This document shows positions 1-3,515 of a stretch of DNA of 64,000 nt, in pieces; position 1 is the first letter of the stretch, and each line of letters starts with the position of its first letter. The position numbers and the translations under genes were made by a program. The notes under the pieces were generated by a model. The model ran no database searches. It was not told where the DNA came from and saw only the letters and a program-made list of their open reading frames with translations. Origin of the DNA: an uncultured Oligoflexia bacterium (GTDB lineage Bacteria > Bdellovibrionota > Bacteriovoracia > Bacteriovoracales > Bacteriovoracaceae); assembly GCA_913058265.1 (NCBI GenBank), contig CAJXPQ010000014.1:1-64000 (forward strand). Direction: 5' to 3'.

Positions 1-47
1 CTACACGTAAGGAGTCGTCGGCAGCGTCAGATGTGTATAAGAGACAG
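1..47 (+). other. Illumina Nextera i5 adapter and Tn5 mosaic end (synthetic contamination)
   Basis: These bases are not genomic. Positions 1-6 are the end of the P5 tail (CTACAC), 7-14 are GTAAGGAG (an i5 index of the Nextera set), 15-28 are the read-1 linker TCGTCGGCAGCGTC, and 29-47 are the 19-bp Tn5 mosaic end AGATGTGTATAAGAGACAG. The order and spacing match the Nextera i5 oligonucleotide exactly. Genomic sequence starts at about 48, so this is an untrimmed contig end. Confidence 0.98.
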
Positions 48-98
48 ATATAAGATTATCTAATATTATTACAAATGGAAACTTTACTAGGTGTTTTA

Positions 99-3000
99 AT
101 GTCTGAGAAAAATACTCTGATGAATTATCTTTTTCAATCTCGATCACAGTTTATCAATATAGATTATAAAGATCTTGCTTCGTTATTCTTGCATCGTTTT
201 GCACAACGAGACAAACAGGATTACAAAGTAATATTCGTTTTCAATGAAGAAGATAATGCAAATCAGTTTTCAGATTTTATTGACTCTGCACTGTTATATC
301 CGGGGATCGGCTCTGAAATCTATTCTTCAATGAATTCTTCAACCACCAACCTCACACAACGGTTTAGTATCCTCCAAAAAATCTTACAGGGTACTGCAAG
401 TACAATTGTGACTACTCATGAAGCAATAGCGCTTCATACACCACCGACACAGTTTTTTGGAAATAGTAATATTCTGATTGTTAAGGATAATATTTACCCA
501 CCCGATCAATTAGCTCAAGATTTAGTTAAGTGTGGGTACTCTAGGACCTTAACGGTAGAAGAGGAAGGCACCTTCGCACTAAAAGGCGAAATTTTGGATA
601 TTTATCCTATTGGCTCTAACCCTATCAGAATATCCTACTTTGATGAAATCATAGAAGCCATTTTTCCTATTGATATCTCCACTCATAAATCTATAAGAGA
701 CTCAGAGATCATTGAGGCCGAGATTAATTCTTCTCCCAAGTCGCTTTTTAGTGATCAGAGTATACAGCTCTTTAAACAAAATATACCGAGGGTTCACTAT
801 TCTGAGTCTGACCTATATGAACACCGTAAACAAATCATTTCAAACCTCAATAACCAATCACTGTTTGACGATTATCCACTATTTCTTTCATTTTTCTTTG
901 ATGATAAGGCAACAATTCATGATTATTTAAAAGATAAAGATTTCACCTTTATTTTTGTAAATGATTCTCTTAATACTTTTGAAGAGTATACTAATGACTT
1001 AACACAACAATTTAATCTTTTTTCAGATGAAGGCATAGGACTATTTAAGCCTAAGCCTGAGGATATTTATAGTTTTAATGGCCATTTCTCTGAAACTTCA
1101 CTTCAGTTAAACAGACCTTCTTTAGGTACTGATAAGGCTCAGCAAATAAAATCATTTCAATACTTACTTCACGAATTAGAACCTTTATTTAATCAATCCC
1201 TTGAACAGCGTTTTACATCAATTAGTAATATCATAAATAGTTTTCAGAAAAATGATCATGAGATTTGTGTCTACTATTCCAGTGAAAAAACTCTTAATGA
1301 AATTAAGTTCATTCTACAAAGTAAAATGGAATACCTTGATCTTCTGAAAATCAAATATATACATAAAAAGATTCCTACTTCTTTTATTCTTGAAGATGAA
1401 AAAGTTATTGTTTTATCCGACTCTCTATTTTTTGCTCATAAGTCTAATAAAGTTAAGAAAGCATCTAAAATGCTTGATAGTAACCTTTTTGCTGAGCAAC
1501 TATCAACCCTAGAGGTTGGTGATTATGTTGTTCATAAGGATCATGGAATTGGTAAATACCTTGGAACAGAGTCCTTATCTTTAAATAATTCTACCTCTGA
1601 TTATATTGTTTTATCTTATAAGGATGAAGACAAGGTTTATGTTCCTGTCTATAAAATGAGCTTACTACAGAAACATTCTACTTCAGCGGCGCAAGTTGCC
1701 GTTGCTAACCTGAAAACAAATAAATTCGATCAAATCAAAAACAAGGCAAGGCAGGCCATAAAAAAACTTGCCTTTAATCTTCTTGAACTTGAGGCTAAAA
1801 GACGCTCTAGAGAGGGTTTTCAATATTCTGAACCAGGTCATGACTATAATGACTTCGAGCTTTCTTTCCCCTACGAAGAAACACCTGACCAGAAAACTGC
1901 AACTGAAAATGTTATCTCCGACATGACATCTACACGACCAATGGACAGACTGATTTGTGGAGACGTTGGTTTTGGGAAAACCGAAATTGCAATGCGTGCT
2001 TGTTTTTTAGCCGTTGTTGATTGCAAGCAAGTCGCAATCTTAGTCCCCACAACTGTTCTTGCTTATCAGCATTTTAATAGCTTCAAAGAGAGATTCAAAA
2101 ATTTTCCAGTCAATGTCGAGTTTATATCACGCTTCAAGACTGCAAAGCAGTCCAATATTATTGCCGAAAAACTACAAACGGGTCAAATTGATATACTAAT
2201 TGGTACTCATAAAATCTTATCTGATAAGTTTAAGTTTAAAGATTTGGGTTTAGTAATAATTGATGAAGAACAGAGGTTTGGCGTTTCACACAAGGAGAAA
2301 TTGAAACTACTTCGTGAGACTGTTGACTCTCTAACTTTAACTGCCACACCAATTCCAAGAACATTGCATCAGTCATTTCTTGGAATTAAAGAATTATCCC
2401 TTATAAAGACACCTCCACCTAGGAGACAGTCTATAAAAACATATGTCATCAAAGAAGATGCTTCTACCTTAAGAATGGCTCTTGAAAAAGAACTCGCTAG
2501 GGGTGGGCAAGTTTTTGTCGTTCATAATAGGGTTAATGATATTGAAAATTATACGGCGAAGATTAGAAAACTTGTACCAAAGGCGCGTGTTGTTTTTGCT
2601 CACGGACAAATGGGTGAGCGAGACTTAGAGCGTATCATTTCTGAGTTTTATGAATATAAATTTGATATTTTGGTTTCCACAACAATCATTGAATCTGGTA
2701 TTGATATTCCTCGCGCAAATACTATGATAATTGATCAAGCAAATAACTACGGCCTATCTCAACTGCACCAACTCCGAGGCCGTATTGGAAGATCTGATAA
2801 AAAAGCATATGCCTATTTCGTTATTCCTTCTCAACATAAATTATCTGAAGTTGCTGCGAAAAGACTACGAGCTATTCAAACATACGCAGAGCTCGGGTCT
2901 GGATTTTCTCTAGCAAGTACAGATTTGGAAATTAGAGGATCTGGAGATGTATTAGGTGCCGAACAATCTGGCCATATCAATAGTATCGGACTTGAACTTT

Positions 3001-3515
3001 ACACTGAGCTTTTAAGAGAAGCTGTTGCCGACCTTAAAGGGGAACCTGTTACTCTTCATGAAGAAATAGAAATAACAACTCCTTTTAATGCCTTTATACC
3101 TGAAACATATATTGAGGCTTCGAATATTAGACTCAAATATTACAAGATTCTTTCAAGTGCAAATGTAATAGAGGATTTAAACGAGACCTTAGAAATTCTG
3201 ACTGATCAATACGGAGCACTACCCTTAGAATTGCTAAATCTTTCAAATATTATTAAAAGCCGCGTTATCTTGTCAGGTATATGTTTAAAGTCTATTAGAG
3301 TTAAATCTAAGTCTATACTTCTTCAATTTGATCGACAGAAACTAGATAGTGATCACATCACTCGAGACAAAGTTATAAACTTATTTTCGCAGCGTCCCAA
3401 GATATATAAATTAAATCCAGATTACTCGATTAATTGTAATTTTAAGGATACAATTTTAATAGACACTTTACTTGAATTCTCTACTTATATTTCAGCTGAA
3501 TTAAGTAAAAAGTAA
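99..3515 (+). CDS. mfd: Transcription-repair coupling factor Mfd
   Basis: Mfd is an ATP-driven translocase that removes RNA polymerase stalled at DNA lesions and recruits UvrA for nucleotide excision repair. The 1138-aa length is typical. Counting from the upstream ATG at 75, a CarD-like RNA-polymerase-interaction domain starts near residue 479 (GDYVVHKDHGIGKY). The helicase core follows, with Walker A GDVGFGKTE near 628, DEEQ near 728, TATPIPRT near 758 and RGRIGRS near 904. A C-terminal TRCF domain completes it. The in-frame ATG at 75 has no ribosome-binding site, whereas the ATG at 99 follows AGGTG at a good distance, so 99 is preferred. The gene lies close to the contig end, so nothing upstream can be judged. 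A 23-nt gap leads to the next gene. Confidence 0.96.
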   Translation: MSEKNTLMNYLFQSRSQFINIDYKDLASLFLHRFAQRDKQDYKVIFVFNEEDNANQFSDFIDSALLYPGIGSEIYSSMNSSTTNLTQRFSILQKILQGTASTIVTTHEAIALHTPPTQFFGNSNILIVKDNIYPPDQLAQDLVKCGYSRTLTVEEEGTFALKGEILDIYPIGSNPIRISYFDEIIEAIFPIDISTHKSIRDSEIIEAEINSSPKSLFSDQSIQLFKQNIPRVHYSESDLYEHRKQIISNLNNQSLFDDYPLFLSFFFDDKATIHDYLKDKDFTFIFVNDSLNTFEEYTNDLTQQFNLFSDEGIGLFKPKPEDIYSFNGHFSETSLQLNRPSLGTDKAQQIKSFQYLLHELEPLFNQSLEQRFTSISNIINSFQKNDHEICVYYSSEKTLNEIKFILQSKMEYLDLLKIKYIHKKIPTSFILEDEKVIVLSDSLFFAHKSNKVKKASKMLDSNLFAEQLSTLEVGDYVVHKDHGIGKYLGTESLSLNNSTSDYIVLSYKDEDKVYVPVYKMSLLQKHSTSAAQVAVANLKTNKFDQIKNKARQAIKKLAFNLLELEAKRRSREGFQYSEPGHDYNDFELSFPYEETPDQKTATENVISDMTSTRPMDRLICGDVGFGKTEIAMRACFLAVVDCKQVAILVPTTVLAYQHFNSFKERFKNFPVNVEFISRFKTAKQSNIIAEKLQTGQIDILIGTHKILSDKFKFKDLGLVIIDEEQRFGVSHKEKLKLLRETVDSLTLTATPIPRTLHQSFLGIKELSLIKTPPPRRQSIKTYVIKEDASTLRMALEKELARGGQVFVVHNRVNDIENYTAKIRKLVPKARVVFAHGQMGERDLERIISEFYEYKFDILVSTTIIESGIDIPRANTMIIDQANNYGLSQLHQLRGRIGRSDKKAYAYFVIPSQHKLSEVAAKRLRAIQTYAELGSGFSLASTDLEIRGSGDVLGAEQSGHINSIGLELYTELLREAVADLKGEPVTLHEEIEITTPFNAFIPETYIEASNIRLKYYKILSSANVIEDLNETLEILTDQYGALPLELLNLSNIIKSRVILSGICLKSIRVKSKSILLQFDRQKLDSDHITRDKVINLFSQRPKIYKLNPDYSINCNFKDTILIDTLLEFSTYISAELSKK

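Follow-up and report, generated by a model that had tools for sequence, protein, structure and literature searches.

The DNA stretch analysed here (the window, 64,000 nucleotides) starts at base 1 of contig C14, one of the 25 contigs of a draft genome of 3.23 Mb. Its first 47 bases read, in sequence, ctacac, gtaaggag, tcgtcggcagcgtc, and agatgtgtataagagacag, and are followed by native DNA carrying the gene mfd for transcription-repair coupling factor (Table 1).

Table 1. Features at the beginning of the window
Feature	Position	Strand	Remarks
CTACAC, terminal bases of the P5 flow-cell portion in the i5 primer	1..6	+	Identical to the printed S505 oligonucleotide
i5 index S505, GTAAGGAG	7..14	+	Adjoins CTACAC; constant across all 5 i5-capped contig ends
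i5 linker, TCGTCGGCAGCGTC	15..28	+	0 mismatches
Tn5 mosaic end, AGATGTGTATAAGAGACAG	29..47	+	Directly after the linker; 0 mismatches
Transposition joint	between 47 and 48		At the inner edge of the mosaic end
First 54 native bases	48..101	+	Same sequence as the native tip of C6, a contig end capped by i7
mfd, transcription-repair coupling factor	75..3515	+	Reading frame intact

Comparison of bases 1–47 with the Nextera i5 index primer S505 plus the mosaic end revealed identity at 47 of 47 positions, which confirmed the proposal of the initial annotation that this segment matches the Nextera i5 oligonucleotide in order. The final 28 bases of the S505 primer, as given in PMC7757419, correspond to the 5′ portion of the segment, and the S505 index, the linker, and the mosaic end are printed as a single oligonucleotide string in PMC10528933. 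The copy in the window is shorter than the Nextera S505 adapter, since on the 5′ side it lacks the first 23 of the 70 bases comprising the primer and the mosaic end. The GC fraction is 0.51 in bases 1–47 versus 0.34 over the following 500 bases, the latter value being equal to the mean for the window.

A search of the 64 kb window for the mosaic end with up to three mismatches revealed a single match, and in the shuffle control, the mean number of matches was 0.03, with at least one match found in 3 of 100 shuffles. By itself, this lone match is only modest evidence; chance is untenable because a mosaic end with zero mismatches adjoins both the index and the linker. No exact match to two TruSeq-type stubs, the reverse-complement mosaic end, or the i7 linker in both orientations was found in the window. 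Bases 1–47 are leftover laboratory adapter and not bacterial DNA; their coordinates are exact, and native DNA extends from base 48. These 47 bases hold no biology and are biologically not a real feature.

Distribution of adapter caps in the draft genome

An exact search of the whole genome revealed 14 copies of the mosaic end, of which 8 were in the forward and 6 in the reverse orientation, and the same search with the reversed mosaic end as a control returned none. All 14 copies are located no more than about 60 bases from a contig end and face inward, and none is internal. An 18-mer search allowing up to three mismatches recovered the same 14 copies, along with three internal sites with two to three mismatches, which look like chance matches (the reversed control gave one). 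The ends of the 25 contigs were examined over 300 bases on each side; after exclusion of two of the 50 ends, which read N, there were 48 ends, including 14 capped by the adapter and 34 uncapped.

The i5 linker was found on five of the 14 caps, each with the S505 index, and the i7 linker on the other nine, each with a single index, AGCGTAGC. The latter is named N709 in PMC10528933, and the same oligonucleotide appears as Ad2.9 in PMC10372461; in the main text of PMC7757419, N709 is not printed. Such a pattern of caps is characteristic of a single dual-indexed tagmentation library rather than a transposon. The interpretation of the segment as a sequencing artefact in the record, put forward in the initial annotation, is supported by the exactness of the adapter and by the occurrence of one i5 and one i7 index across the capped contig ends. 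Since the adapters recur at 14 ends of the draft, they represent an ordinary artefact that is to be trimmed.

The far end of the contig to which the window belongs (C14, positions 93194–93235, outside the window) is also capped by the S505 i5 adapter.

Overlaps of contig ends and native sequence at the junctions

The trimmed contig ends were compared inward from the adapter boundary. An exact match to another capped end was found for eight of the 14, which fall into four pairs, namely the end of C6, capped by i7, and the start of C14, capped by i5 (54 bases); the ends of C14 and C20 (41 bases) and the start and end of C23 (47 bases), both with the i5/i7 pattern; and the starts of C11 and C20, with i7 on both (20 bases). 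No overlap of at least 15 bases occurred in 182,000 pairs of the shuffled-end control. The remaining 6 of the 14 capped ends had no partner overlap of at least 6 bases among the capped ends, and the fragments at these sites may therefore not overlap at all. Comparison of capped with uncapped end pieces revealed no match to the first 15 native bases of any capped end.

The uncapped ends are located mostly at repeats. In all eight anchored pairs of uncapped ends, the overlap was 55 bases, one pair additionally overlapping at 31 bases within a repeat, and 25 of the 34 uncapped ends, counted by hand, have a 25-mer in common with another uncapped end. Since the capped overlaps are all shorter than 55 bases, whereas the uncapped ones are exactly 55 bases long, the k of the assembler was most likely 55.

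The identity of bases 48–101 with the native tip of C6 means that the native DNA upstream of base 48 is known and free of adapter: the window is preceded by the end of contig C6. The mfd gene may start at the ATG at position 75 or at that at position 99, and its product scored 963.9 bits against TIGR00580 (cut-off of 800). When C6 and C14 were joined in a script, a native in-frame stop was found upstream of mfd at positions 51–53; the frame is thus bounded upstream by a native stop, and the adapter neither shortens nor lengthens the gene. New relative to the initial annotation are the identity of the index, the distribution of the caps across the genome, the way in which they probably arose during assembly, and the native sequence adjoining the window.

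The gene order upstream of mfd was compared in nine relatives. A gene on C6 located about 4.7 kb before mfd and coding for 982 amino acids has homologues in genomes G001 and G012 at a similar distance and in divergent orientation, and a homologue of the next C6 gene is present upstream of mfd in genome G002. Altogether, genes of the C6 tip occur upstream of mfd in three of the nine relatives with comparable orientation and spacing, in agreement with the joining of C6 and C14. No C6-tip gene was detected upstream of mfd in the other six relatives; since the compared mfd proteins are only about 30% identical, these misses may reflect low sensitivity. Joining C11 and C20 by their 20-base overlap restored one glutaredoxin 2 frame, with a match over positions 5–208. 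This frame scored 145.4 bits against NF007702 (cut-off of 133) and 135.9 bits against the related TIGR02182, which is below the cut-off of 186.65.

Origin of the caps

Bases 1–47 are almost certainly a library adapter retained through an untrimmed de Bruijn assembly in which fragments overlapped by less than k. Tn5 tagmentation would have cut the genome at base 48, and reads begun at the opposite end of a short fragment would continue through the insert into the adapter. If reads with untrimmed adapters entered a de Bruijn assembly whose final k was 55, adjacent Tn5 fragments overlapping by less than k in regions of thin coverage could not be bridged by the graph, and the adapter, as the sole remaining extension, would become the tip of the contig. 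It is also very likely that the caps mark Tn5 cut sites with thin coverage and that the sub-k overlaps reveal missed neighbours, giving the order C6-C14-C20-C11 and suggesting that C23 is a 13,366-base circle or tandem copy.

A single very short insert, that is, one 54-base molecule with i5 and i7 flanks assembled onto both C6 and C14, could also bring an adapter to these ends. The i7 at the end of C6 and the i5 at the start of C14 do surround the same 54 bases, as for one short molecule, and the i5/i7 arrangement is repeated in the C14/C20 and C23 pairs. However, i7 is present at both sides of the C11/C20 pair, which is unexpected from one molecule, and the fact that all four overlaps are shorter than 55 bases is predicted by the k limit but not required by short inserts. 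Moreover, on each contig the adapter is followed by the 54 bases and then by that contig's own native flank, an arrangement that would need two different molecules. Because one overlapping pair has i7 on both sides, the single short insert was set aside as very improbable.

The 19-base mosaic end derives from the ends of Tn5, and this ancestry speaks for a native Tn5/IS50-like transposon end of the bacterium. Against such an origin, the mosaic end is attached to a synthetic index and linkers, all 14 copies are confined to contig ends, and in the class-level search, an exact mosaic end was found in only 3 of 129 genomes, including the genome under study (14 copies here, 11 in genome G010, and 1 in genome G037). 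Among the 14 copies checked, no exact mosaic end inside a contig with native DNA on both sides was found. The Tn5-type transposase domain Tnp_DNA_bind (PF14706) had no matches genome-wide, E. coli being positive among the 14 control genomes, and a search of the genome for the IS50 outside end with up to three mismatches returned only the 14 adapter copies, each with three mismatches. The last two results support the warning of the initial annotation that the segment is not a native transposon; the index and linker sequences already rule this origin out, and its probability is negligible. Engineered transposon constructs employ mosaic ends as well, and an engineered Tn5-type transposon or vector in a mutagenised strain could carry them. 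However, the outer side of the 14 copies consists of sequencing indices or remnants of flow-cell primers, and at 8 of the 14 ends, native sequence that also occurs on a neighbouring contig appears directly behind the mosaic end, which makes an engineered construct hardly conceivable.

The importance of a library adapter retained through untrimmed assembly is limited to the quality of the record, from which bases 1–47 should be trimmed together with the adapter on the remaining 13 capped ends. Untrimmed caps could pass for a transposon end or for DNA common to unrelated genomes, and trimming combined with checks for sub-k overlaps would join several contigs of the draft.

Adapter carry-over in other records and contig C23

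According to the SKESA paper (PMC6172800), the 19-mer mosaic end ranked first among suspect k-mers for 199 out of 219 trimmed read sets from a 5000-set sample. Cases of Illumina adapter carry-over and the present draft have in common the same 19-mer or the same adapter in public records. Unlike in general adapter carry-over, the capped ends of the present draft retain their pairing, and the artefact thus records which contigs are neighbours. A search with the 47-base query at E ≤ 10 revealed matches in 61 plasmid and 109 phage records, only one plasmid and nine phage records having a query coverage of at least 80%; the other matches are partial, and the weakest of them may be due to chance.

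One public plasmid record titled as complete contains all 47 bases, including the S505 index, at positions 1001–1047 between genes. In phage records, pieces of the adapter lie beneath annotated genes, for example, those of a terminase and a portal protein. In genome G010, which belongs to the same family and contains 11 exact mosaic ends, the four forward mosaic ends are located no more than 50 bases from contig starts and one reverse mosaic end lies 31 bases from the end of its contig; this genome is probably a further draft in which Nextera adapters were left untrimmed.

Contig C23 (1–13510) carries adapter caps at both ends. Since both ends are capped and overlap by 47 bases after trimming, this contig is probably a circle of 13,366 bases or a tandem copy. 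Two adjacent genes of C23 (5856–6929 and 6926–9694) match the N-terminal (profile positions 11–286) and C-terminal (306–1212) parts of one PADLOC Dsr1 model, respectively, and form a predicted two-gene Dsr1-like defence locus. Further genes of C23 encode a C5 DNA methylase, a Schlafen-group-3 helicase, a MazG-like protein, and an integrase-core protein, and a tRNA scan of this contig found none. A 922-aa protein of C23 was found only in its own genome among 20 genomes searched (its own included), and one plasmid record contained a match to it with 23% identity.
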